Shown: piece by piece, positions 21,911-33,632 of the stretch
How positions within the stretch are numbered: position 1 is the first letter of the stretch
Layout of the letters: each line of letters begins with the position of its first letter
DNA from: Azospirillum sp. TSH100
Lineage (GTDB): Bacteria; Pseudomonadota; Alphaproteobacteria; Azospirillales; Azospirillaceae
DNA: 64,000 nucleotides
Reading direction: 5' to 3'
NCBI RefSeq assembly: GCF_004923295.1
Contig: NZ_CP039635.1
Location: 950,501 to 1,014,500 of the forward strand
Notes under the pieces: generated by a model
Database searches by the model: none
The model's input: only the letters and a program-made list of their open reading frames with translations
Told to the model about the DNA's origin: nothing
Program-made: the position numbers and the translations under genes

Positions 21911-23230
21911 TCACCCCAAACGCTTGGCGATCAGCGGCCCGCGCACCGGTGCCGTGTCCGTCACCCTGACCGACGCGCGCAGGCGGCGTTCCGCCTCGTC
22001 GGCCTGTGCCTCGGTGCGGGCGTGCAGGATCGCCAGCGGGCGCTCGTCCGGCCCCACCGCGTCGCCCAGCCCGGCCACCTCGTCGAAGCCGACGGCGAAG
22101 TCGATGGCGTCGGTCGTCCTGGTCCGCCCGCCGCCCAGCGCCACCACCGCCATGCCGACCCCACGGGTGTCGATGGTTCCGACGAGGCCGGCCCGCTCGG
22201 CGAAGACCGGGCGAACGATGGGCGCGCTCTCCAGATGGCGGTCCGGCTGTTCCAGCAGGTCGGCTGGCCCGCCGAGCGCTTCCACCATGCGGGCGAAGCG
22301 CTCCGCCGCCGCGCCGCTGGCGATCGAGCGGTCGGCCATGGCCCGCCCGGCCGCGGCATCCGGCGCCAGTCCGGCCAGCGCCAACAGTTCCGCCGCCAGC
22401 GCCGCCGTCACCTCATAGAGCCGCGGTTCGGCCGGCTCACCGCGCAGGATGGCGAGGCATTCGCGCATCTCCAGCGCGTTGCCGGCGCTGCGGCCCAGCA
22501 CCTCGTTCATGTCGGTGAGCAGGGCGACTGCCGGCAGGCCGGCGCCCTTCGACACGGTGACGATGCTGTCGGCCAGCGCCTCCGCGTCCTCAAAGCGCTG
22601 CATGAAGGCGCCGCTGCCGAACTTTACATCCATCACCAGCGCATCCAGCCCGGCGGCGAGCTTCTTCGACAGGATCGACGCAGTGATGAGGTCGAGCGAC
22701 TCCACCGTCGCCGTCACGTCGCGGATGGCGTAGAGCCGCTTGTCGGCCGGAGCGATGTCGTCGGTGGCGCCGATCACTGCGCAGCCGACCTCCTTCACCA
22801 CCCGGCGCAGCAACTCATTGTCGGGTTTGGCGCGATAGCCGGGGATGCTCTCGAACTTGTCGAGCGTGCCGCCGGTGTGACCGAGGCCGCGGCCGGACAC
22901 CATCGGCACGAAACCGCCGCAGGCGGCCAGCATCGGCGCCAGGATCAGGCTGACCTTGTCGCCGACGCCGCCGGTGGAATGCTTGTCGATCACCGGACCG
23001 GGCAGGTCCAGCGACCGCCACTCCATCACCGTGCCCGAATCGCGCATGGCGCGGGTCAGCGCCACCCGCTCGTCCAGGCTCATGCCCCGGAAGAAGACGG
23101 CCATGGCAAAGGCCGACGCCTGGGACTCCGACACCCGGCCATCGGTGATGCCACGGACGAAGTCCTGGATGGTGGCGGCGTCAAGCGGCTGGCCGTCGCG
23201 CTTGGCGCGGACGATTTCCTGCGGAAGCAT
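21911..23230 (-). CDS. deoA: Thymidine phosphorylase
   Basis: Pyrimidine nucleoside phosphorylase, 439 aa, releasing thymine or uracil and (deoxy)ribose 1-phosphate. Typical segments are LPQEIVRAKRDGQPLD at the N-terminus, VDKHSTGGVGDKVS-like DKHSTGGVGDKVSLILAPM near residue 83 (phosphate site), and MVSGRGLGHTGGTLDKFESIPG. It is the last gene of the nucleoside salvage operon, three bases after deoC. Products feed into DeoC via phosphopentomutase, which is not in the window. Confidence 0.95.
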   Translation of the reverse strand: MLPQEIVRAKRDGQPLDAATIQDFVRGITDGRVSESQASAFAMAVFFRGMSLDERVALTRAMRDSGTVMEWRSLDLPGPVIDKHSTGGVGDKVSLILAPMLAACGGFVPMVSGRGLGHTGGTLDKFESIPGYRAKPDNELLRRVVKEVGCAVIGATDDIAPADKRLYAIRDVTATVESLDLITASILSKKLAAGLDALVMDVKFGSGAFMQRFEDAEALADSIVTVSKGAGLPAVALLTDMNEVLGRSAGNALEMRECLAILRGEPAEPRLYEVTAALAAELLALAGLAPDAAAGRAMADRSIASGAAAERFARMVEALGGPADLLEQPDRHLESAPIVRPVFAERAGLVGTIDTRGVGMAVVALGGGRTRTTDAIDFAVGFDEVAGLGDAVGPDERPLAILHARTEAQADEAERRLRASVRVTDTAPVRGPLIAKRLG

Positions 23231-23233
23231 GGT

Positions 23234-24061
23234 TCAGTACCCTCCCGCCGGAGCCGGTTCACGTTCGCCTTCCTGCTCTCCATGCCCGGCTGCCGCCAGC
23301 AGCGAATCGAGCAGGCTGGAGGCACCGAACCGGAAAGTGTTCGGCGTCGCCCAGCCATCGCCCAGGATGCGGTCGGCCAGCGCCAGATAGCGTGCCGCCT
23401 CGGCCGTGTCGCGGATGCCGCCGGACGCCTTGAAGCCGACCTGCTTGCCCGATTCATAGATGCTGTCCAGCATCACCGCCGCCGCCGGCAGGGTGGCAGC
23501 CGGCTGGGTCTTGCCGGTGGAGGTCTTCAGGAAATCGGCGCCGGCGGCGATGGCGTCGCGCGCCGCCCAGGCCAGCAGGTCGGCGTCGGGGAAGGCCCCC
23601 GATTCCAGGATCACCTTCATCAGGGCCTTGTCGCCGCAGGCCTCGCGGCAGGCTTTCACCACATTGATCGGCTGGGTGCGGGCGCCGTCGATGAAGGCCT
23701 TATAAGGCAACACCACGTCAATCTCGTCCGCGCCATCGGCGATGGCGCGCCGCGTCTCGGCAGCCACGGCCGCGGCGTCGGCCTCGCCGGTCGGGAAATT
23801 GACCACGGTGGCAATCTTGACGGGCGTGCCGTCGAGTGCCTTGCGCGCGGTGGGGACGAAGCGTGCCCAGACACAGACGGCGGCGACCGGCCCCACGGGC
23901 GTGACGGCGCGGGCGCAGAGGTCCTGCACCACCCGGTCGCTGTCATCGCCGTTAAGGCTGGTGAGGTCGAGCATGCCCACGGCCCGGCGCGCCAGATCGG
24001 CGTTGGACGGGGCGTTGGCGCTGGCGTCGAGCGCGCTTTGCAGGTCGGCAGACAGTTTCAT
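23234..24061 (-). CDS. deoC: Deoxyribose-phosphate aldolase
   Basis: Class I aldolase, 275 aa, cleaving 2-deoxyribose 5-phosphate to acetaldehyde and glyceraldehyde 3-phosphate. The beta-strands EIDVVLPYKAFIDG, KVILESGAF and the Schiff-base Lys in ADFLKTSTGK (about residue 183) are present, as is the second Lys in VGFKASGGIRD. The ATG overlaps the punA stop (ATGA). This is typical of the long DeoC subgroup. It completes degradation of the sugar released by the two phosphorylases of the operon. Confidence 0.95.
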   Translation of the reverse strand: MKLSADLQSALDASANAPSNADLARRAVGMLDLTSLNGDDSDRVVQDLCARAVTPVGPVAAVCVWARFVPTARKALDGTPVKIATVVNFPTGEADAAAVAAETRRAIADGADEIDVVLPYKAFIDGARTQPINVVKACREACGDKALMKVILESGAFPDADLLAWAARDAIAAGADFLKTSTGKTQPAATLPAAAVMLDSIYESGKQVGFKASGGIRDTAEAARYLALADRILGDGWATPNTFRFGASSLLDSLLAAAGHGEQEGEREPAPAGGY

Positions 24062-24891
24062 GACCGGGACCCGTCCTTCTCATGCAGGCGTTCGAGGAAG
24101 CCGACCAGCAGGCGCTCCAGGTCGGCGGCTGCCGCCGAGGCGGCGGTCAGGGTCTGATGATGGTCAACCGGCCCATCGCCGAGCCCGACGCCCAGATTGG
24201 TGACGACGGCGCAGCCGACGACCCGCAGGCCGCAATGACGTGCGATGATGCATTCCGGTACGGTGGACATGCCGACCGCGTCGGCGCCCAGCATCTTCAT
24301 CATCCGCACCTCGGCCGGCGTCTCGAAGGACGGACCGGGATAGGCTGCGTAAACGCCTTCCGACAGATCGATCGACAGGCCGGCGGCGACATCCTTCAGC
24401 AGGGTGCGCAGTTCCGGATCCCAGGCGTCGGTCATGCTGGGGAAACGCTCGCCGAAGACCTCGTCGTTCGGGCCGGTCAGCGGGTTGGCGCCCAGCAGGT
24501 TCAGATGGTCGCTGATCGCCATCAGCCGGCCGGGGCCGACCTCCAGCCGGAGCGAGCCGACGGCGGCGGTCAGCACCAGCGTGTCGCAACCGGCCAGCTT
24601 CAGCGCCCGCACCGCGGTCTTCAGCGCATCGAAGCCGTTGCCCTCATAGGCATGGACGCGGCCCTGCATGCAGGCGACCTCGACGCCGCCGAGTTGTCCC
24701 ACCATCAGTCGTCCGGCATGGCCGGAGACGCTGGGGATGGGGAAGCCGGCGATGTCGGTGTAGGGGATGGCGACCGCATCGCCGATGCGGTCGGCGATGC
24801 CGCCCAGGCCGGAGCCCAGCACGATCCCGACCCGCGGCCGATGGCCGGGGGCATGGTGAAGGATGTCCGCGGCGGCGCGGGCTGCGGTCAT
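24058..24891 (-). CDS. punA: Purine-nucleoside phosphorylase
   Basis: Trimeric-type purine nucleoside phosphorylase, 277 aa. Phosphate-binding GIVLGSGLGG near residue 22 and the His in VSGHAGRL, the LVLTAAVGSL strand, and the purine-site segment YAAYPGPSFETPAEVRMMKMLGADAVGMSTVPE near 190 identify it. GGAG stands nine bases before the ATG. In the typical family motif TNAAGG the stretch here reads LTAAVGSL, a mild difference. It sits between cdd and deoC in the operon. Confidence 0.93.
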   Translation of the reverse strand: MTAARAAADILHHAPGHRPRVGIVLGSGLGGIADRIGDAVAIPYTDIAGFPIPSVSGHAGRLMVGQLGGVEVACMQGRVHAYEGNGFDALKTAVRALKLAGCDTLVLTAAVGSLRLEVGPGRLMAISDHLNLLGANPLTGPNDEVFGERFPSMTDAWDPELRTLLKDVAAGLSIDLSEGVYAAYPGPSFETPAEVRMMKMLGADAVGMSTVPECIIARHCGLRVVGCAVVTNLGVGLGDGPVDHHQTLTAASAAAADLERLLVGFLERLHEKDGSRS

Positions 24892-24906
24892 GTCGGGAAA
24901 CTCCGC

Positions 24907-25326
24907 TCAGAAGGCTAAATTGGTGGGGCCGAAGGATTCGGGCAACAGGGCTTCCAGTGAGAACGTCCGGCGCAGGCCGGCCGGGTCGCAGATGTGGATC
25001 GGCGTTTCCGGTGTCGCGAACTCGCGGATGCGCTGGCGGCAGCCGCCGCACGGTGTGCAGATCTCCTCCGCCCCGGCGTCGCCGCCCATCACGACGATGG
25101 CGCGGATGCGGCGGTCGCCGGCGGTGACCATGGCGCCGATGGCGCTCGATTCCGCGCATTGCCCCTGCGGATAGGCCGCGTTCTCCACATTGCAGCCGGC
25201 GAAGACGCGGCCCGAGTCGCCTAGGATGGCCGCGCCCACCTTGAATTTGGAATAGGGAGCGTGGGCGTTCTCGCGCGCGGCGCGGGCCGCTTCGATCAGC
25301 CGCGACAGCTCTGCCGGCTCGGCCAT
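24907..25326 (-). CDS. cdd: Cytidine deaminase
   Basis: Homotetrameric-type zinc cytidine deaminase, 139 aa, converting (deoxy)cytidine to (deoxy)uridine. The zinc ligands and catalytic Glu are NVENAAYPQGQCAES (C and E) and the PCGGCRQ pair of Cys. The ATG at 25326 is preferred over one at 25347 because AAGGAG lies about ten bases upstream. It follows the permease stop by four bases, so import and deamination are co-expressed. Confidence 0.94.
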   Translation of the reverse strand: MAEPAELSRLIEAARAARENAHAPYSKFKVGAAILGDSGRVFAGCNVENAAYPQGQCAESSAIGAMVTAGDRRIRAIVVMGGDAGAEEICTPCGGCRQRIREFATPETPIHICDPAGLRRTFSLEALLPESFGPTNLAF

Positions 25327-25330
25327 GGGC

Positions 25331-26305
25331 TCAGCGCTCCTTGACATAGGGGATGCCGCTCGCCTTCGGGGCGATGGCCTTGCCGACGAAGCCGGCCAGC
25401 AGCAGGACGGTCAGCACATAGGGCAGCATCTGGATGAACTGCACCGGGATGACGCCGATGCCCGGCAGGACCACGCCCTGGAGGCGGACCTGCACCGCGT
25501 CGGTGAAGGCGAACAGCAGGCAGGCGAACAGGGTCGGACCCGGCCGCCATTTGCCGAAGATCAGCGCCGCCAGCGCCAGATAGCCCTTGCCGGCGGTCAT
25601 GTCGCGGACGAAACCGGCGCCATGGCCGGTGGACAGGTAGGATCCTGCCATGCCGGTCAGCACGCCGGTGACCAGCAGCGCCTGATACCGCAGCCTCGCC
25701 ACCGAAAGGCCGGCGGTGTCGACCGCCGCCGGATTCTCGCCCACCGCGCGCAGCCGCAGGCCGAAGCGGGTGCGGTAGAGCACCCACTGGGTGGCGATCA
25801 CCAGCACCAGCGTCACCCAGATCAGCACATTGTTGCCGTTGAACAGCTCGCGATAGACCGGCCCCAGGAACGGGACGCCGGACAGCGCCTCGACCCCCGG
25901 CAGCTCCACCGCGGGGAGACGTGCCTGGTTGGGCAGCAGCGGGGTCTGGCCGCCCTGCTGGAACCAGGCATAGGCCAAGGTCGGGGCCAGCCCGGCGACC
26001 AGGATGTTGATCGCCATCCCCGACACCACCTGATTGCCGTTGTGGGTGATGCAGGCGAAGCCATGGACCATCGCCAGCGCCATGCCGGCGGCGATGCCGG
26101 CCAGCAGCCCGAGCCAGGGGTTCAGCGTGGTGGAGGCGACGGCGGCGGAGAAGAAGGCGCCGGCCAGCATCTTGCCTTCCAGCCCGATGTCGACCACGCC
26201 GGCCCGCTCGCAATACATGCCGGCGAAGGCGGCCAGCACCAGCGGCGTCGCCACCCGGATGGTGGCGCCCAGCAGCTGCAAGGCCAGAAGCAGCGCGTCT
26301 TCCAT
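25331..26305 (-). CDS. Nucleoside ABC transporter permease (YufQ type), second system
   Basis: 324-aa permease with about ten membrane segments. The family stretch GMYCERAGVVDIGLEGKMLAGAF lies near residue 30 and VGENPAAVDTAGLSVARLRYQAL near 188. It corresponds to the protein at 365-1288. It is second gene of the salvage operon, three bases after its partner permease. No ATPase or BMP gene accompanies the pair in this operon, so the energy and binding subunits must be encoded elsewhere, possibly at 2334-4975. Confidence 0.88.
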   Translation of the reverse strand: MEDALLLALQLLGATIRVATPLVLAAFAGMYCERAGVVDIGLEGKMLAGAFFSAAVASTTLNPWLGLLAGIAAGMALAMVHGFACITHNGNQVVSGMAINILVAGLAPTLAYAWFQQGGQTPLLPNQARLPAVELPGVEALSGVPFLGPVYRELFNGNNVLIWVTLVLVIATQWVLYRTRFGLRLRAVGENPAAVDTAGLSVARLRYQALLVTGVLTGMAGSYLSTGHGAGFVRDMTAGKGYLALAALIFGKWRPGPTLFACLLFAFTDAVQVRLQGVVLPGIGVIPVQFIQMLPYVLTVLLLAGFVGKAIAPKASGIPYVKER

Positions 26306-26308
26306 CGC

Positions 26309-27451
26309 TCAACCCCTTCCCGTCTCGGCGGCGGCAGTGCCGCCGCGGCGGCGGAACAGCGCCTCGACCTGCGGTTTGAACAGGTTTTCCATCGCGCCGG
26401 CGAACAGGATGACCAGACCCTGGATGACCATCACCAACTCGCGGTTGATCGTGGGGTATTCGAAGGACAGCTGGCCGCCGCCCTGCGCCAGAACCCCGAA
26501 CAGCAGTGCCGCCAGAATGATCCCGACCGGGTGGTTGCGCCCCATCAGCGCCACGGCGATGCCGACGAAGCCGACGCCGCCGGTGAAGTTCAGGATCACC
26601 CGGTGCTGCACGCCCAGGATCTCGTTCACGCCGACGAAGCCTGCCAAGGCACCCGAGATCAGCATGGCGATGATGATGTTGCGTGCCGGCGAGATGCCGG
26701 CATAGACCGCCGCCCGCTCGTTGCGGCCGACTGTGCGCAGTTCGTAGCCCCAGCGGGTTCGGCGCAGGAAGATGTGGAACAGAGCGCAGCAGGCCAGCGC
26801 CCACAGGAAGGACAGGTTAAGCGGTGACGCGGGAATCGCGATGCCGAACCAGCCGAGCGCCCGGTCCATCGACGGCAGCCAGACGCCGGGATCGAACTCG
26901 CGCGTTTCCGGCGACTGGCTGCCGGGGCGGATCAGCACGTCCACCAGCAGCCAGGTCATGATCGAGGCGGCGATGAAGTTGAACATGATCGTCGTGATGA
27001 CGATGTGGCTGCCGCGCTTGGCCTGAAGCCAGGCCGGGATGAAGGCCCAGGCGGCACCGAACAGAGCGGACGCCAGCACCGCCAGCAGCGCCACCACCGG
27101 CCAGGGCCAGCCGGTCAGCGCCAGCGCCACCAGCCCGGCGCCGAGCCCGCCCAGATAGGCCTGTCCCTCGCCGCCGATGTTGAACAGGCCGCAATGGAAG
27201 GCGATGGCGACCGCCAGCCCGGTGAATATGTAGTCGGTGGTGTAATAGAGGGTGTAGCCGATGGCCTCCGGATAGCCCAGAGCCTCCGACAGCAGCAGCG
27301 ACAGAACGTCCACCGGGTTCTCGCCGATCACCAGGATCACCAGACCCGACAGCACGAAGGCCGCGACGAGGTTGAGAACCGGCAACAGCGCATACCCGAC
27401 CCAGCCCGGCACGGCGCCCGGCTGACCCTTCCCCGACCCGCTCAGCAGCAC
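26309..27451 (-). CDS. Nucleoside ABC transporter permease (YufP type), second system
   Basis: 380-aa permease, partner of the preceding entry and counterpart of 1295-2344. The GTG at 27451 is chosen because AGGAG lies six bases upstream; the reading frame stays open further up but that part is not protein-like. Hydrophobic segments begin at ALLPVLNLVAAFVLSGLVILVIGENPVDVL, and the conserved HCGLFNIGGEGQAYLGGLGAGL lies near residue 90. It is first gene of the salvage operon; the 185 bases up to the divergent ferredoxin gene must contain the promoter. Confidence 0.87.
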   Translation of the reverse strand: MLLSGSGKGQPGAVPGWVGYALLPVLNLVAAFVLSGLVILVIGENPVDVLSLLLSEALGYPEAIGYTLYYTTDYIFTGLAVAIAFHCGLFNIGGEGQAYLGGLGAGLVALALTGWPWPVVALLAVLASALFGAAWAFIPAWLQAKRGSHIVITTIMFNFIAASIMTWLLVDVLIRPGSQSPETREFDPGVWLPSMDRALGWFGIAIPASPLNLSFLWALACCALFHIFLRRTRWGYELRTVGRNERAAVYAGISPARNIIIAMLISGALAGFVGVNEILGVQHRVILNFTGGVGFVGIAVALMGRNHPVGIILAALLFGVLAQGGGQLSFEYPTINRELVMVIQGLVILFAGAMENLFKPQVEALFRRRGGTAAAETGRG

Positions 27452-27636
27452 CGGCGTCTCCTGGATTGCCCCTTGCCGGCGATTCTTAACCGCCAATGCT
27501 CTGCCGACCAAGCGTTTCGTGATGTGGGAAAGCCAGCGGACATCGGGACTTGGAAGCGTCACAAAAGTCTTGCCGCATCGCAGCATTCTGGCATGCTTCT
27601 TACCCATAGAAATTTTATGGCTATGGAGCATGCCCG

Positions 27637-27969
27637 ATGCCGCTCGACATTCCGCGGACCTTCCGCCACCATGTCTTCTGCTGCGCCCAGCAGCGCCCGC
27701 CCGGCCATCCGCGCGGCAGCTGCGCCGCCAAGGGCGCACATCCGCTGTGGCAGCGGCTCGATCAGAAAATCCAGGGCAAGGGTCTCACCGATGTCGGCAT
27801 GGCGATGACCGGCTGCCTCGGCTTCTGCTCCGCCGGGCCGCTGATGGTGGTGTATCCGGAAGGCATCTGGTACCGACCGGAAACGCCGGAGGACATCGAC
27901 GAGATCGTCGACTCGCATCTGGTCAACGATGTGCCGGTGGAGCGGCTGGTGATGGTGCTGACTCGGTGA
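27637..27969 (+). CDS. Thioredoxin-like (2Fe-2S) ferredoxin
   Basis: 110-aa protein of the thioredoxin-fold [2Fe-2S] ferredoxin group. The first Cys region is HHVFCCAQQRPPGHPRGSC and the second GCLGFCSAGPLMVVYPEGIWY, which match the four-Cys pattern of these proteins. GGAG lies eight bases before the ATG. The gene is alone between divergent nucleoside permeases and the EamA gene. Its redox partner is not evident. The family assignment is good; the physiological role is unknown. Confidence 0.82.
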   Translation: MPLDIPRTFRHHVFCCAQQRPPGHPRGSCAAKGAHPLWQRLDQKIQGKGLTDVGMAMTGCLGFCSAGPLMVVYPEGIWYRPETPEDIDEIVDSHLVNDVPVERLVMVLTR

Positions 27970-28075
27970 GGTGAGGGAGGTTACGCCTACCAGGCCTGCG
28001 GTTGCGGCATTGGGACGCCGGTGCATTTGCCCATAATGTGGGCAGTCCCCGCCATTGCCGTACCGAACATCTCCC

Positions 28076-28990
28076 ATGACCGACGCCGAAACCGCCGACC
28101 TGCTGCCCGCCGAGGCCGATTCGGTTCCCTATGCCGTCGGCTGCTTCCTGGGCGCGATCCTGCTGTTCGCGGCGATGGACACGCTCATCAAATTCCTGAC
28201 CGCCGATTACCCGGTGCCGCAGCTGATGTTCGTGCGCTCGCTGGTCGCCCTCCTGCTGGTGGGCGGCTATACGCTTTGGCGTGGCGGCGGGATTGCGGCA
28301 ATGCGGACGCAACGGCCGTGGGGGCATGTCTGGCGGGCCTTTGCCGGGCTGATCTCGATGGGCTGCTTCTTCTATGCCTTCCGCGAGCTGCCGCTGGCCG
28401 ACGTTTATGTCCTGAGCTTTGCAGGACCGCTGTTCATCACCGCACTGTCCGCTCCGCTGCTGGGGGAGCCGGTGGGCTGGCGCCGTTGGGCCGCTGTCGT
28501 GGTCGGTTTCGGCGGCGTGGTCGTGATGGCGCAGCCCTCGGCCGGGGCCCCGCTGGTGCCGGTGCTGGTCGGGCTGTGCGCCGCCCTGTTCTATGCACTG
28601 GCGGCACTCGCCGTGCGCGGCCTGTCGCGGACGGAGACCAGCGCATCGATCGTGCTCTATCTGCTGCTCACGACGACGGTGGTCAGCGGTGCGCTCGCGG
28701 TCCCGGTCTGGACGGCGCCGACGGTCTTCGCCCTCGGGCTGATGGCGCTGGTCGGTGCGATCGGCGCCGGAGCGCAGGTTCTGCTGACCCAGGCCTTCCG
28801 CCGCGCGCCGCCGGCGGCGGTGGCGCCCTTCGAATATACCGGCATGGTCTGGGCCAGTCTGTTCGGCTGGCTGGTGTTCGGCGATCTGCCGACCGTGCCG
28901 GTGATCGCCGGCGCCATGGTCATCATCGGCAGCGGGCTCTACATCCTGCATCGTGAAACGGTGGTGGCGCGCCGCCGGCTGGGTGCTTGA
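28076..28990 (+). CDS. DMT-family (EamA) transporter
   Basis: 304-aa inner-membrane protein with ten predicted helices in two EamA repeats, from the drug/metabolite transporter superfamily. It begins cytoplasmic (MTDAETADLLPAEAD), then FLGAILLFAAMDTLIKFL, and the repeat signature ALNPPLF-like FAGPLFITALSAPLLGEPVGWRRW ends the first half. The ATG at 28076 lacks a clear Shine-Dalgarno; a TTG at 28055 is open. A hairpin at 29003-29023 follows it. The substrate is not known. Whether it is linked to the thiamin-regulated genes downstream is doubtful because of that hairpin. Confidence 0.85.
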   Translation: MTDAETADLLPAEADSVPYAVGCFLGAILLFAAMDTLIKFLTADYPVPQLMFVRSLVALLLVGGYTLWRGGGIAAMRTQRPWGHVWRAFAGLISMGCFFYAFRELPLADVYVLSFAGPLFITALSAPLLGEPVGWRRWAAVVVGFGGVVVMAQPSAGAPLVPVLVGLCAALFYALAALAVRGLSRTETSASIVLYLLLTTTVVSGALAVPVWTAPTVFALGLMALVGAIGAGAQVLLTQAFRRAPPAAVAPFEYTGMVWASLFGWLVFGDLPTVPVIAGAMVIIGSGLYILHRETVVARRRLGA

Positions 28991-29023: not shown

Positions 29024-29029
29024 TGTTCA

Positions 29030-29125
29030 AGGCTGGGGTGCCTGTGCAAAGACCGGATCGGCGGCTGTGCGGGCTGAGACAACACCCATCGAACCTGATC
29101 CGGGTCATGCCGGCGAAGGGAGCCG
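29030..29125 (+). ncRNA. TPP riboswitch (THI element)
   Basis: The conserved THI-box parts occur in order. GGGGTGCC lies at 29035-29042, GGGCTGAGAC at 29071-29080, ACACCC at about 29082-29087, and the long conserved block GAACCTGATCCGGGT through GCCGGCGAAGGGA at 29091-29121. The outer P1 stem can form from GGCT (29031-29034) and AGCC (29121-29124). This block is the classic pyrophosphate and pyrimidine sensing core. About 85 bases separate it from the start of the binding-protein gene at 29210, whose TTGAGGAG could be sequestered. Thiamin pyrophosphate should repress the downstream ABC transporter. The expression platform was not resolved. Confidence 0.93.
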
Positions 29126-29209
29126 ACCGGAACCCGACGGATCGCCTGCAAAACGTCCCGTCTCATCCGCGTCGCCCCGGTGCCGGCGCGTGTTGAGGAG
29201 TTTTCGGTC

Positions 29210-30346
29210 ATGCGGCGCGCGCTTTCCCTTCTGATCGGCCTGCTGGCGGCATCGACCTGCCTGTCCCCGGCGGCACGGGCCGACGACACGCTGTCCTTCC
29301 CGGTGCTGGTGCCGCTGACCGGATTCCTGTCGCTGGAGGGCACCAGCCAGCGCAACGGCGCCGTCCTGGCACTGAAGCAGACCCCTGCCGGCGTGGCCAT
29401 CGCATCCGAGATCGTCGACACCGGCACCTCGCCAGAAGCGGCGGTGACGGCGCTGGAACGCGCGGCCGGCGGCGGCACGGTCGGCGCGGTCGCCGCCAGC
29501 ATGCTCGGCACCCAGATGCTGGCGATGCTGCCGCTGGCGAATGAGCTGAAACTGCCGCTGGTCACCGTGTCGGGCACCGCCTCGATCACCGAGCAGGGCA
29601 ATCCCTGGGTCTTCCGCTTCTTCCCCGGTGACGCCGTGACCAAGGCCGCCCATGCCCGCTATGTGGTGGAGGAACTGGGCAAGCGCCAGCCGGCGGTCAT
29701 CTACCAGACCACCGCCTATGGCCAGAGCGGCAAGGCCCATCTCGACGCCGCCTTCAAGGCGCTGGGCGTCACGCCCGTCTTCGAGGAGGGGGTGGACCCG
29801 GCGGCCAAGGATCTGCTGCCGGTGCTGACCAAGGCGCTGGCCGCCAACCCCGACGTGCTGGTGCTGCATCTGCATTCCGGCCCGACCGCGCTGCTGCTGC
29901 GGCAGGCGGCGTCCGGCGGTGTGACCCTGCCGATCGTCGCCGGTTCCGCCATGCATCAGCCGAGCACCGCCGCCCTGCTGGAACCGGCCGAACTCAAGGG
30001 CGTCTGTGCCGAGACCGCGGCCTCGCCGATCTCGGGCGGCACGCCTGAGGTCAAGGCCTTCACCGACGCCTACCGCGCCGCCTTCGGCAAGGAGCCGGAC
30101 GCCTTCGCGCTCGGCCAGTATGACGGCATGACCATGGTGCTGGAGGCGGTGAAGGCCGGCGCCCGCACGCCCGACGCCATCCGCAAAGCCCTGTCGTCCG
30201 AGACCTTCAAGGGCCTCGCCATGACCTACAAGTCCGATGGCAAGGGCAACATGGCCCATTCCGCCGTCATCGTCTGCTATGACGGGACCAGCCGCGTGCC
30301 GGCGCTGGTGAAACGGTACGACGACCCGACGCTTGCGGCGAAGTGA
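29210..30346 (+). CDS. LivK-type (Peripla_BP_6) substrate-binding protein under TPP riboswitch
   Basis: Periplasmic binding protein of the branched-chain amino acid/amide (HAAT) class, 378 aa. The ATG at 29210 follows TTGAGGAG by nine bases. The signal peptide is RRALSLLIGLLAASTCLSPAARA, cleaved before DDTLSF. Family segments are VLVPLTGFLSLEGTSQRNGAVLAL, VAASMLGTQMLAMLPLANELKLPLVTVSGTAS and TTAYGQSGKAHLDAAFKALG. LivK relatives bind amino acids, amides, urea and aromatic compounds. Control by a TPP riboswitch predicts instead thiamin, a thiamin degradation product or a precursor such as HMP. The binding pocket cannot be judged by eye. Confidence 0.88.
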   Translation: MRRALSLLIGLLAASTCLSPAARADDTLSFPVLVPLTGFLSLEGTSQRNGAVLALKQTPAGVAIASEIVDTGTSPEAAVTALERAAGGGTVGAVAASMLGTQMLAMLPLANELKLPLVTVSGTASITEQGNPWVFRFFPGDAVTKAAHARYVVEELGKRQPAVIYQTTAYGQSGKAHLDAAFKALGVTPVFEEGVDPAAKDLLPVLTKALAANPDVLVLHLHSGPTALLLRQAASGGVTLPIVAGSAMHQPSTAALLEPAELKGVCAETAASPISGGTPEVKAFTDAYRAAFGKEPDAFALGQYDGMTMVLEAVKAGARTPDAIRKALSSETFKGLAMTYKSDGKGNMAHSAVIVCYDGTSRVPALVKRYDDPTLAAK

Positions 30347-30350
30347 GCGG

Positions 30351-31223
30351 ATGGCGGCGCTTCAACTGCTGGTCAACGGGGTGGCGCTGGGTGCCGCCTA
30401 TGCCCTGGTGGCGCTGGGCTTCGTGCTGGTGCTGAACGCCACCTCGGCGGTGAATTTCGCCCAGGGCGATCTGGTCATGGCCGGCGGGCTGCTGGCGGTG
30501 GCGCTGGCGCCGCTGATCCCGCTGCCGGGCATCGCCCTGCTGCCAGCGGTGCTGGTCCTGATGGCGGCGCTCGGACTTGTGCTGGCGCTGGCGGCCTATC
30601 TGCCGCTGCGCAGCCGGCCGCCGGTGTCGGTCTTCATCAGCACCATCGCAGTCGGCATCATCCTGCAGAACGGCGCCGCCATCCTGTTCGGGCCGGAGCC
30701 GCGCGCCGCACCGCCGCTGTTCGGCGACGACACTCTCCATATCGCCGGGCTTGCGGTTCCCGAGCAGTCGCTCGCCATCGTCGCGGTGGCGGGGCTGCTG
30801 ATCGGGGTGCAGCAATGGGTGTTCGCCCGCACCCAGTTGGGCCGCCGGCTGCGCGCCACGGCGCAGGACCCGGAGATGGCGCGGGCCTGCGGCGTGCCGG
30901 TCACCGCGATGATCCTGGTGACCTTCGCCATCGGGGCCGCCTGCGCCGGAGCGGCCGGGCTGCTGCTGGCCAACCGCTATTTCGTCACGCCGACTTCGGG
31001 CGGCGATCTGATTTTGAAAGCCTACATCGCGGTGACGGTCGGGGGCTGGGGCTCCGTGCCGGGGGCGGTGGTCGGGGCTCTGCTGATCGCGCTGTTCGAG
31101 GTGGGGGTGTCGTCGGTGCTCTCATATCCGGTGGCGCTGGGGGCCCTGTACCTGACGCTGCTGGCGATTCTGGTGCTGCGCCCGCAAGGTCTGTTCGGCG
31201 AAGCGGTGCGACGTCGTGGGTGA
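30351..31223 (+). CDS. LivH-type ABC transporter permease under TPP riboswitch
   Basis: 290-aa inner-membrane permease with about eight helices, beginning LQLLVNGVALGAAYALVALGFVLVLNATSAVNFAQGDLVMAGGL, a hallmark of LivH. The QDPEMARACGVPVTAMILVTFAIGAACAGAAG loop is the ATPase contact region. It starts four bases after the binding-protein stop. A weak GAAGTGAGCGG precedes the ATG. It works with the permease half of the next gene as the heterodimeric channel. Confidence 0.9.
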   Translation: MAALQLLVNGVALGAAYALVALGFVLVLNATSAVNFAQGDLVMAGGLLAVALAPLIPLPGIALLPAVLVLMAALGLVLALAAYLPLRSRPPVSVFISTIAVGIILQNGAAILFGPEPRAAPPLFGDDTLHIAGLAVPEQSLAIVAVAGLLIGVQQWVFARTQLGRRLRATAQDPEMARACGVPVTAMILVTFAIGAACAGAAGLLLANRYFVTPTSGGDLILKAYIAVTVGGWGSVPGAVVGALLIALFEVGVSSVLSYPVALGALYLTLLAILVLRPQGLFGEAVRRRG

Positions 31224-32934
31224 GCGATCCCCGTTGCGCATCCCCTTGATAGCAGGCGCCCTCGCCATGCTGGTGTACGCGCTCGCCTTCGCCTCCCCCT
31301 ACGGCCTGCGCGTTCTGACCGTCGCCGGTGTCTATGCGCTGGCGACCTTCGGCTTCCAGATCGTCTTTGGCCTGGGCGGAGCACTGTCGCTGGCACAGGG
31401 GGCCTTTTTCGGTATCGGCGCCTATGTCACCGGCATCCTCGGCAGCCGCTATGGTCTCGGTTTCGAGGCGACCTTCCCGCTGTCGATGCTGGTGCCGCTG
31501 CTGCTGGCCCTGCCGGTCGGGCTGGCGGTGCTGCGGCTGGAGTCGCATTACTTCGCGCTGGCGACCCTCGGCATCGCCCAGGTGCTTCATCTGCTGGCGG
31601 TCAACCTGCCGGAGCTGACCGGCGGCTCCAACGGGCTGGCCGGGGTGCCGGCGGCGGTGTTGTTCGGCTGGACGGTGCCGCGCGGGCTGCCGATGGCCGG
31701 GCTGGTCTGGGGGCTTGTCGCGCTCGGCGGACTGATCGGCTGGCGGCTGGCGCGCGGGCGGCTCGGCCGGTCGCTGACCATGCTGCGCGACGATCCGCTG
31801 GCGGCGGCAACGTTGGGGCTGGACGTCGGGCGTCTGCGGCTGGCCGCCTTCGGCATCAGCGCGCTGTTCGCCGGAGCGGCCGGCGCATTGGCCGTGCATA
31901 CCCAGCGCGTCGTCTCGCCGGAGGTGCTGGAGTTTCCAGTGATGGTCTCCATCCTCACCATCGCCATCGTCGGAGGGCGGGGGCGGATGGCCGGGGCGGT
32001 GTTGGGCGCCGTGCTGCTGCTGCATCTGCCGGAATGGTTCCGCTTCCTGGAGCGCGGCTATCTCGTCGTCTATGGCGTCGCCCTGCTGGCGACCGTCGTG
32101 CTGGCGCCGGCCGGGCTGACCGGGGTGCTCGACCGTATCGCGGCGCGCCTGTTCGGCCGCAAGCCGCATCCAATCCCGGATGCGCAGGAACCGCCCAGGT
32201 CGTCCGATCCGTCGGCTGGTTTGACGGTGGAGGGCTTGCGGAAGTCGTTCGGCGGCGTGGTCGCGGTGGATGGGGTGTCGTTGGACCTGCGGCCGGGCAC
32301 CATCACCGGGCTGATCGGCCCTAACGGCTCCGGCAAATCCACCGTCATCAACCTGCTGTCAGGGCTGGAGCGGCCGGATGCCGGGCGGGTGCGGCTCGGC
32401 GGGCGGGAGGTCACCGGCGCCCGCGCCGACCGGCTGGCCCGCGCCGGGCTGGCCCGCAGCTTCCAGGCCGCGGCACTGCCGACAGGGTCGGGCGTGCTGG
32501 AGGCGGTGGCCGCTGCCCGCCTCGCCACCGATCCCGATGCTGCGATGGCCGAGGCGCATGCCCTCTGGGCGCTTGACCGGCTGGGCGTCGGCGGGCTTGC
32601 CGGACAGTCCTGCGACGGGCTGCCGGCGGCGGTTCGGCGCCGGGTGGAACTCGCCCGTGCCCTGGTCCGCCGGCCGGCGGTGCTGCTGCTGGACGAACCT
32701 GCCGCCGGTCTGACCGACGGCGAAAAGGCTGAATTGGCGTCCCTGCTCCGCAACCTGGCGGGGGAGGGGATGGCGATCCTGCTGGTGGAACATGACATGG
32801 GGTTCCTGCTGCCGCTCTCCGGCCGGGTGCTGTGCCTCGACCGTGGGCGAGCGATTTATGACGGTCCGGCCGGCTGCGTGCGCCACGATCCGGCGGTGGC
32901 CGCCGCTTACATGGGGCGGGTGGCATCAGCATGA
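31216..32934 (+). CDS. Fused LivM-type permease and LivG-type ATPase
   Basis: One 572-aa polypeptide joins two normally separate subunits. Residues about 1-300 are a LivM permease (ATFGFQIVFGLGGALSLAQGAFFGIGAYVTG; LPELTGGSNGLAGVP; TMLRDDPLAAATLGLDV). Residues about 335-572 are a LivG ATPase with Walker A GPNGSGKST near 368, Q-loop LARSFQAAALP, Walker B LLLDEPAAGL near 490 and the switch His LLVEHDMGF. The ABC signature, normally LSYGQ, reads LPAAV here. The GTG start overlaps the LivH gene by eight bases, and livF starts within this stop (ATGA). Fusions of this kind are known in the LIV family but are uncommon. Confidence 0.88.
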   Translation: MGERSPLRIPLIAGALAMLVYALAFASPYGLRVLTVAGVYALATFGFQIVFGLGGALSLAQGAFFGIGAYVTGILGSRYGLGFEATFPLSMLVPLLLALPVGLAVLRLESHYFALATLGIAQVLHLLAVNLPELTGGSNGLAGVPAAVLFGWTVPRGLPMAGLVWGLVALGGLIGWRLARGRLGRSLTMLRDDPLAAATLGLDVGRLRLAAFGISALFAGAAGALAVHTQRVVSPEVLEFPVMVSILTIAIVGGRGRMAGAVLGAVLLLHLPEWFRFLERGYLVVYGVALLATVVLAPAGLTGVLDRIAARLFGRKPHPIPDAQEPPRSSDPSAGLTVEGLRKSFGGVVAVDGVSLDLRPGTITGLIGPNGSGKSTVINLLSGLERPDAGRVRLGGREVTGARADRLARAGLARSFQAAALPTGSGVLEAVAAARLATDPDAAMAEAHALWALDRLGVGGLAGQSCDGLPAAVRRRVELARALVRRPAVLLLDEPAAGLTDGEKAELASLLRNLAGEGMAILLVEHDMGFLLPLSGRVLCLDRGRAIYDGPAGCVRHDPAVAAAYMGRVASA

Positions 32935-33632
32935 GCGCGCTGCTGTCCATCAGAAACCTGACCGCCGGCTATGGCGGCGCCACGGCGCTCGACGATGTTG
33001 CGCTGAGCATCGCGGCCGGTGAGACGGTGGCGCTGCTCGGCGCCAACGGGGCGGGGAAATCGACGCTGCTGAAGGCTCTGCTCGGGCTGGTGCCGGCACA
33101 AGGAGAGTTGCGGTTCGACGGTGCCGACCTCGGCGGGCTGGCGACGGAGGCGCGGGTGCGGCGCGGCATCGGCTATGTGCCGGAAGGGCGGCGGGTCTTT
33201 CCCGGCATGAGCGTCCGCGACAATCTGGAGGTCGCCGGCCTGCCTGCCGCCCGCGACCGCGCGCAGGATGTCGAGCGCGTCTTCGCCCTGTTCCCTGACC
33301 TTGTGGGCAAGAGCGGGGAAAGTGCGTGGCGGCTGTCCGGCGGCCAGCAGCAGATGCTGAGCCTTGGGCGCGCGCTGATGGGCCGGCCGCGTCTGCTTCT
33401 TCTGGATGAGCCGTCGCTCGGCCTGTCGCCCAGGCTGTCCGACGAGCTGTTCGCAGCCGTCCGCCGCATCGCCGCCACCGGCACCGCCGTGCTGCTGGCG
33501 GAGCAGAGTGCCGCCCGCGCCCTGGCGGTTGCCCCGCGCGCCGTGCTGTTGCGGCTCGGCCGTGTCATCGGCGATGGGCCGGTGGAGTCACTGTCTGAGC
33601 AGGCGCTGCGCGAAGCATTCTTCGGTGGTTAG
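32931..33632 (+). CDS. LivF-type ABC transporter ATP-binding protein
   Basis: 233-aa ATPase, second nucleotide-binding subunit of the TPP-controlled importer. Walker A GANGAGKST at about 33-41, the LivF stretch GIGYVPEGRRVFPGMSVRDNLEVAG, signature LSGGQQQMLSLGRALMGRP and Walker B LLLLDEPSLGLSPRL are intact. The D-loop and a Gln (AEQSA) in place of the usual switch His environment are typical for LivF. The ATG overlaps the previous stop by four bases. Because the LivG half has a weak signature motif, this subunit probably supplies the working signature opposite the LivG Walker A. Confidence 0.9.
   Translation: MSALLSIRNLTAGYGGATALDDVALSIAAGETVALLGANGAGKSTLLKALLGLVPAQGELRFDGADLGGLATEARVRRGIGYVPEGRRVFPGMSVRDNLEVAGLPAARDRAQDVERVFALFPDLVGKSGESAWRLSGGQQQMLSLGRALMGRPRLLLLDEPSLGLSPRLSDELFAAVRRIAATGTAVLLAEQSAARALAVAPRAVLLRLGRVIGDGPVESLSEQALREAFFGG

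Follow-up and report, generated by a model that had tools for sequence, protein, structure and literature searches.

The 64-kb window analyzed here, a stretch of 64,000 nucleotides from Azospirillum sp. TSH100 (contig NZ_CP039635.1, positions 950,501 to 1,014,500), carries a thiamin pyrophosphate (TPP) riboswitch aptamer just upstream of the genes for an ATP-binding cassette (ABC) importer of the LIV/HAAT type. The aptamer, or THI element, spans positions 29024..29138 of the plus strand and scores 61.2 bits by cmscan with the Rfam covariance model RF00059, above the gathering score of 54.3 bits (E = 1.5e-9 for a search of the whole window with all 4227 Rfam families). It ends 71 bases before the start codon of a gene for a periplasmic binding protein. 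The original prediction placed a THI element in front of a LivK-type binding protein; the covariance model bears this out, and the coordinates and gene order given for the locus were correct.

Four importer genes lie on the plus strand. The LIV/HAAT-type binding protein (378 aa, 29210..30346) matches PF13458 with 168.8 bits and has, as judged by eye, a signal peptide. It is followed by a LivH-type permease (290 aa, 30351..31223; PF02653, 117.5 bits), a fusion of a LivM permease with a LivG ATPase (572 aa, 31216..32934; PF02653 at residues 31-291 and PF00005 at residues 352-496), and a LivF-type ATPase (233 aa, 32931..33632; PF00005, 113.2 bits). Successive genes are separated by a 4-base gap, then overlap by 8 bases and then by 4. 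The importer set is complete, with a Peripla_BP_6 binding protein, two BPD_transp_2 permeases, and two ABC ATPase domains. Scores against the NCBIfam Liv models fall short of their cut-offs (49 versus 477, 97.1 versus 379, 166.9 versus 362, and 191.9 versus 441 bits), as do those against UrtB (126.8 versus 250.3), UrtD (148.2 versus 304.1), and UrtE (196 versus 285.8); the LivF-type ATPase is under the cut-offs of both the UrtE and the LivF equivalog models.

To the score of the aptamer can be added evidence from an alignment of 21 aptamer sequences (20 distinct, including the three other TPP elements from the window genome). Changes on both sides are seen in 5 of the 20 base pairs, and 96.7% of paired cells can pair, compared with 39.7-52.3% when partners are slid by 1-3 columns, a lenient control in that the sequences are related and the structure was derived from this same alignment and is thereby favored over the slid versions. 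The covariation score was matched by none of 500 shuffles. With a score over the gathering score and a paired core that is conserved with compensatory changes, the element belongs to the TPP riboswitch family. We rejected a chance aptamer, which score, covariation, and conservation all oppose. The leader between aptamer and start codon (29139..29209, plus strand) includes a Shine-Dalgarno-like GAGGAG shortly upstream of the start, and no terminator-like site was found in it; from its sequence, it is presumed to be a translational expression platform. We also compared 33 Azospirillaceae leaders, which were reduced to 27 by setting aside two that lack a recognized ribosome site (L070 and L072) and four repeats. 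CGCCGGC or its complement occurs upstream of the ribosome site in 19 of the 27. In just three of them did the best pairing between leader and aptamer reach a shuffle fraction at or below 0.05, and therefore we claim no switch helix.

The pairing of riboswitch and importer is an old one. Within the genus, one sample has an orthologue of the binding protein in 36 of its 37 genomes and a larger sample in 44 of 45, counting that of the window itself; G012 is the sole genome without it in both. At the level of the order, 50 of 82 genomes and 3 of 13 genera have an orthologue. The original prediction had called for a survey of such operons behind TPP elements in other genomes. This survey recovered a TPP element upstream at all 36 genus loci scanned (from 43 other genus matches). 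In named genomes, the best 80 of 119 relatives were scanned with a model trained on 21 aptamers from the genus and the window genome, and 58 of these 80 loci have a TPP element just upstream of the binding protein. Among the 22 loci that lack a match, two (L088 and L110) have fewer than 50 upstream bases and one (L080) has 233. The Rfam model confirmed all nine TPP-positive loci given to it (L070, L081, L086, L087, L089, L094, L099, L104, and L115) and found no TPP element in the five TPP-negative loci given (L076, L077, L078, L082, and L083). Mapped onto a tree of 81 binding proteins, the presence of the element requires five changes (three when two sequences at contig edges are left out), versus a mean of 19.6 for shuffled labels. 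All 33 sequences of the Azospirillaceae clade are TPP-linked (support 97), and the nearest named relatives of the window locus are from Azospirillum. The 20 TPP-less sequences comprise 15 near this clade, in a mixture of Beta- and Alphaproteobacteria with several weak forks, and five in a Reyranella group. No relative was found among 69 pattern matches in viral contigs.

Some loci of this survey are of separate interest. L098 and L101 are two TPP-linked importer copies in one metagenome-assembled genome (G118). The names of two others are doubtful: the binding protein of L085, a metagenome-assembled genome named Klebsiella pneumoniae, is nested in a betaproteobacterial group, and that of L062, named Roseomonas genomospecies 6, is nested in the Azospirillum brasilense group.

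The structure of the binding protein was examined for clues to its ligand. The AlphaFold2 model (mean predicted local distance difference test score 91.7) is nearest to LivJ (4gnr; Z 41.7, root-mean-square deviation 2.6, 340 residues aligned) and LivK (3td9; Z 41.4, 3.0, 344 residues). Because the model also lies close to binders of amides (AmiC), urea, 4-hydroxybenzoate, and vanillate, the fold leaves the ligand undecided. An acidic residue of LivK holds the alpha-amino group of amino-acid ligands. In an alignment of sequences with Thermotoga LivK (3td9), the aspartate of its GDG motif meets Ser246 and a tyrosine meets His222, and both Ser246 and His222 are kept without exception in the 57 orthologues compared. 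These replacements make an amino-acid ligand unlikely, to the extent that such an alignment can tell. The protein is matched by PF13458 and PF01094 only; neither the ThiB family (TIGR01254/TIGR01276, at E 0.001) nor PF09084 (NMT1/THI5-like) matches it. No clear pocket differences were seen between TPP-linked and TPP-less orthologues.

If the importer serves thiamin supply, its distribution may reflect which thiamin genes a genome holds. We determined this in an even sample of 290 genomes of the class, each at least 95% complete, with at most six importer candidates scored per genome. The importer is present in 25 of these genomes, 17 of which have a TPP element within the flank scanned (15 of 23 loci, plus the window and L020). 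ThiG was found in 163 of the 290 (E 1e-40) and the ThiE family in 207 (E 1e-25), including all 25 importer genomes. The TPP-linked importer occurs in 13 of 48 genomes with ThiE but not ThiG, versus 4 of 159 genomes with both (Fisher p 1.6e-6). This genome-level p is inflated by relatedness, and tests at the level of families were therefore added. Families with a member that has ThiE but not ThiG make up 7 of the 9 with a TPP-linked importer versus 24 of the 79 without (p 0.008), and with one genome drawn per family the median p over 2000 draws is 0.007, with p below 0.05 in 95% of draws. TPP-less orthologues show no link to ThiG (2 of 48 versus 6 of 159, p 1). Sister genera split as predicted in family f67 (G177 and G264 versus G331 and G390) and in family f83 (G273, G338, and G396 versus G193).

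A second set comprised 29 genomes, many of them metagenome-assembled and of unstated completeness, that were reached through TPP-linked importer loci (one of these, L110, without upstream DNA). The two sets overlap, with coinciding coordinates for G273/G108, G182/G122, G198/G125, G282/G134, and G396/G126, and some genomes of the 23 class loci are also among the 80 named loci. Full-length ThiG (about 354 bits) is present in two of the 29 genomes, both Skermanella; partial matches scoring roughly 19 to 32 bits in 12 more, 10 of them over the Pfam cut-off of 23 bits, were not counted. ThiC was found in 7 of the 29 and the ThiE family in 27. ThiE passes the TIGR00693 cut-off in each of three ThiG-lacking importer genomes tested, and also in G107 and in the window genome. 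We rejected Thi4 as a hidden thiazole source; it is present in only one of the 290 class genomes (G279), which is not an importer genome.

The other TPP-controlled operons of importer genomes indicate which half of thiamin is already provided for. The TSH100 genome (7.17 Mb, 8 contigs) has four TPP elements above the cut-off, including that of the window; the other three precede a thiZ-thiX-thiY-like set, thiC, and thiO-thiS-thiG, as assigned by reading the genes, and here ThiY is also matched by PF09084 and ThiG by its own model. A search of 41 genome entries (of which G108 and G273 probably represent the same genome), using stricter filters by which some elements may be missed, found TPP elements in all 41 and above the cut-off in 39. 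Other than ThiC of G204 and G346, ThiB of G124, and NMT1, the operon genes were named by eye. Among 29 other TPP loci read, out of 30 retrieved (L212 repeats L211), 19 precede thiXYZ-like genes, four thiC, two a LuxE-LuxC set, one a ThiB-like gene, and one the importer itself, and two (L191 and L214) have no gene call. Twenty further stretches, four of them without a gene call (L232, L233, L234, and L237), add thiXYZ-like or NMT1 genes in G282, G182, G111, G113, G198, and G127, as well as thiC (G204 and G346), thiBPQ (G124), LuxE-LuxC sets, importer loci, and a phnS2-like gene (G109). NMT1 was confirmed in all six binding proteins tested, including that of the window genome, and ThiC scores 1066 bits in G204 and 1070 bits in G346 against a cut-off of 650.

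Ten of the 13 ThiG-lacking class genomes with a TPP-linked importer have TPP-controlled thiXYZ-like genes or thiC, and thus a pyrimidine supply. The remaining three are G177 and G264, with a LuxE-LuxC-NMT1 set, and G181. In G204 and G346, where two TPP elements were found each, one precedes the importer and the other thiC, such that the pyrimidine is made and the source of thiazole is missing. Nisaea (G123 and G198) likewise keeps a TPP-controlled thiC, and Nisaea denitrificans is predicted to make the pyrimidine but no thiazole. The pyrimidine supply is therefore mostly covered and that of thiazole is not, which points to the importer.

Some of these other operons contain less familiar genes. 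In genus g80 (G264, L219:3968-9774; G177, L220:489-6300), a second TPP element precedes genes for LuxE-like (PF04443) and LuxC-like (PF05893) proteins, and the operon continues with an ATPase, a permease, an NMT1-type binding protein (PF09084), and a short-chain dehydrogenase. As read from the genes in two genomes of one genus, this set could convert a carboxylate to an alcohol, as salvage of an oxidized vitamer needs. In G109, a TPP element (C180:6642-6770) precedes the gene for a phnS2-type binding protein (L228:5516-6556, minus strand; TIGR03261, 447.3 bits, above the cut-off), a family named for 2-aminoethylphosphonate uptake.

Collectively, there is good support for the importer having a role in the supply of thiamin. 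The proposal that a LIV-scaffold system is a candidate importer for thiamin, one of its halves, or a breakdown product gains support from the significant and conserved TPP element and from the link with ThiG absence. Because the missing half in importer genomes with ThiE but not ThiG is the thiazole, we propose that the TPP-linked importer carries a thiazole vitamer, an assignment of substrate drawn from gene content that we give about an even chance of being right. TPP riboswitches as a class lower expression in the presence of TPP, and the significant, conserved aptamer implies that ample TPP would lower importer expression. As TPP falls, the binding protein would capture a thiazole vitamer in the periplasm, such as hydroxyethylthiazole (HET), its 2-carboxylate (cHET), or a related thiazole, and the complex of LivH, LivM-G, and LivF would import it. 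After phosphorylation by a presumed kinase, ThiE would join the thiazole to pyrimidine from ThiC or from ThiXYZ-type import. In Azospirillum, which has ThiG, thiazole import would be salvage beside synthesis, whereas in Alphaproteobacteria without ThiG the importer would be the thiazole supply. A bolder version, which we put forward more tentatively, is that this is the long-missing high-affinity bacterial thiazole importer on a LIV/HAAT scaffold, feeding a salvage route free of ThiM, either through another kinase or because the thiazole enters already phosphorylated or carboxylated. In this version, the g80 LuxE-LuxC operon would be its companion, reducing the carboxylate of a vitamer to an alcohol.

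Several observations weigh against a thiazole substrate, and a correlation of gene content does not amount to a test of transport. Algae that use cHET require ThiM (PMC5899164). ThiM is present in 32 of the 290 class genomes (E 1e-15), concentrated in those with ThiE but not ThiG (22 of 48 versus 10 of 159 with both), and was not found in 16 of the 17 with a TPP-linked importer, or in 12 of the 13 of these that lack ThiG. Among the 48 genomes with ThiE but not ThiG, one (G400) combines ThiM with the TPP-linked importer, 12 have the importer alone, 21 have ThiM alone, and 14 have neither, a pattern of mutual avoidance between importer and ThiM (p 0.0012). Therefore, importer genomes without ThiM must have another kinase, take up a phosphorylated substrate, or import thiamin itself, and the 14 genomes with neither suggest another thiazole or thiamin supply beyond these. 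Furthermore, 35 of the 48 lack a TPP-linked importer, families f88 and f104 include ThiG-lacking genomes both with and without one, and 4 of the 17 genomes with one, including Azospirillum, have ThiG. In G181, a genome 100% complete, the importer has the only TPP element found, and no TPP-controlled pyrimidine supply is seen, though ThiC was not searched for in the class sample. The ThiE genes examined have no significant TPP match, save in G117, where an element lies upstream of thiM-thiE (ThiM by PF02110). TPP-less orthologues have the same conserved residues, though five of them adjoin genes for an Fe-dependent alcohol dehydrogenase, an AurF-like diiron protein, or an aldehyde dehydrogenase. 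Finally, a survey of coastal genomes found thiazole auxotrophs to be rare and thiM to be transcribed by a SAR116-clade cluster (PMC10881298).

Some of these observations raise the possibility, which we rate as a lesser but serious one, that intact thiamin or its phosphates are imported and that genomes without ThiG, without ThiM, and mostly without ThiC live on preformed vitamin, with ThiE a leftover. The scarcity of ThiM in importer genomes, the failure to find ThiC in 22 of the 29 genomes reached through importer loci, the single TPP element of G181, and the position of ThiE, by eye, near gap, fba, or tkt with no TPP element there (the case in most of the 20 stretches examined, and beside fba in Azospirillum) all favor this explanation. 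However, the TPP-controlled thiC kept in G204, G346, and Nisaea would be useless if thiamin came whole, and 19 of the 29 other TPP loci precede thiXYZ-like genes. Moreover, a TPP-controlled ThiB importer already exists beside the window-type importer in G124 (TIGR01276, 419.5 bits) and, by eye, in G110. Of the two readings, G181 is a better fit to thiamin import, and G204, G346, and Nisaea are a better fit to thiazole.

Import of a pyrimidine vitamer, such as hydroxymethylpyrimidine (HMP), aminomethylpyrimidine (AmMP), formylaminomethylpyrimidine (FAMP), or a pyrimidine carboxylate, appears improbable. TPP-controlled salvage of such vitamers is common, and a pyrE-like gene (cluster 13) lies downstream of the importer in 14 of 80 loci, many of them in marine genomes. 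However, the 10 ThiG-lacking class genomes noted above already have TPP-controlled thiXYZ-like genes or thiC, and import of pyrimidine would leave ThiG-lacking genomes without thiazole. We also set pyrE aside as a guide to the pathway, since the single copy run against NCBIfam passes the cut-off as an orotate phosphoribosyltransferase and is thus a housekeeping neighbor. Still less probable, in our estimation, is an ordinary importer of amino acids, amides, or urea whose TPP element is there by chance or for unrelated tuning. Family membership and database names, which read branched-chain amino acid transport, speak for it, but the element is retained across the genus and at most of the wider loci, all four proteins miss the Liv and Urt cut-offs, and the acidic LivK residue is Ser246 here. 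The amino-acid importer of the database name is thus unsupported.

The surroundings of the importer genes were also read. In G181, the pyrE-like gene (L238:8466-9158) overlaps LivF by one base. The five TPP-less loci with oxidoreductase-type neighbors are L078, L080, L082, L083, and L091, which from their genes look as if the same or a similar ligand were degraded. In the window itself, genes on the minus strand at 21911-27739 (thymidine phosphorylase, deoC, purine nucleoside phosphorylase, cytidine deaminase, and two permeases) read by eye as a cluster for nucleoside uptake and salvage, beside which lies an EamA transporter at 28055-28990. PADLOC found nothing.

The importer shares its fold and gene set with known LIV/HAAT systems (LivJ/K-H-M-G-F, UrtABCDE, and the aromatic-acid and amide binders), but differs from them in the upstream TPP riboswitch, the scores below Liv and Urt cut-offs, the invariant serine in place of the acidic LivK residue, and the fusion of LivM with LivG. 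ThiXYZ, the NMT1/THI5-like pyrimidine importer, is also a TPP-controlled ABC importer of a vitamin B1 vitamer and coexists with the window-type importer in many genomes; however, it has an unrelated binding protein (PF09084) and permeases of another family (PF00528), and it supplies pyrimidine. ThiBPQ is a TPP-controlled ABC importer for thiamin, again with an unrelated binding protein. ThiW, the predicted TPP-controlled thiazole transporter of Firmicutes, is a small integral membrane protein rather than an ABC system with a periplasmic binding protein.

A thiW riboswitch appears in a figure legend of PMC6478431, and a figure legend of the 2018 carboxythiazole paper states that the sequences of the systems by which cells take up thiazole precursors are not known (PMC5899164). 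The transporter genes named in the portion seen of a recent survey are thiB, thiT, thiY, thiV, cytX, ykoF, thiPerm, and omr1, with no LIV type (PMC10881298). An analysis of TPP regulons describes 19 orthologue groups of transporters for thiamin or its precursors, listed in its Additional file 5 (PMC3766115). In the literature searched, we recognized no paper that links a TPP element with a LIV importer, although a prior listing is possible in that file or in RegPrecise; the parts seen of PMC9870897 and PMC12452182 contain both kinds of word and do not make the link. What appears to be new is a TPP-controlled importer on the LIV scaffold, a scaffold that is not known to us to serve B1 vitamers.

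Microbes of the sea and the soil exchange vitamin B1 and its halves. The presence of the operon in culturable Azospirillum and Nisaea would make the question of thiazole transport a testable one. If the thiazole proposal is true, the predicted B1 needs of many Alphaproteobacteria would change, and the branched-chain amino acid labels that databases attach to relatives of this importer would be corrected.

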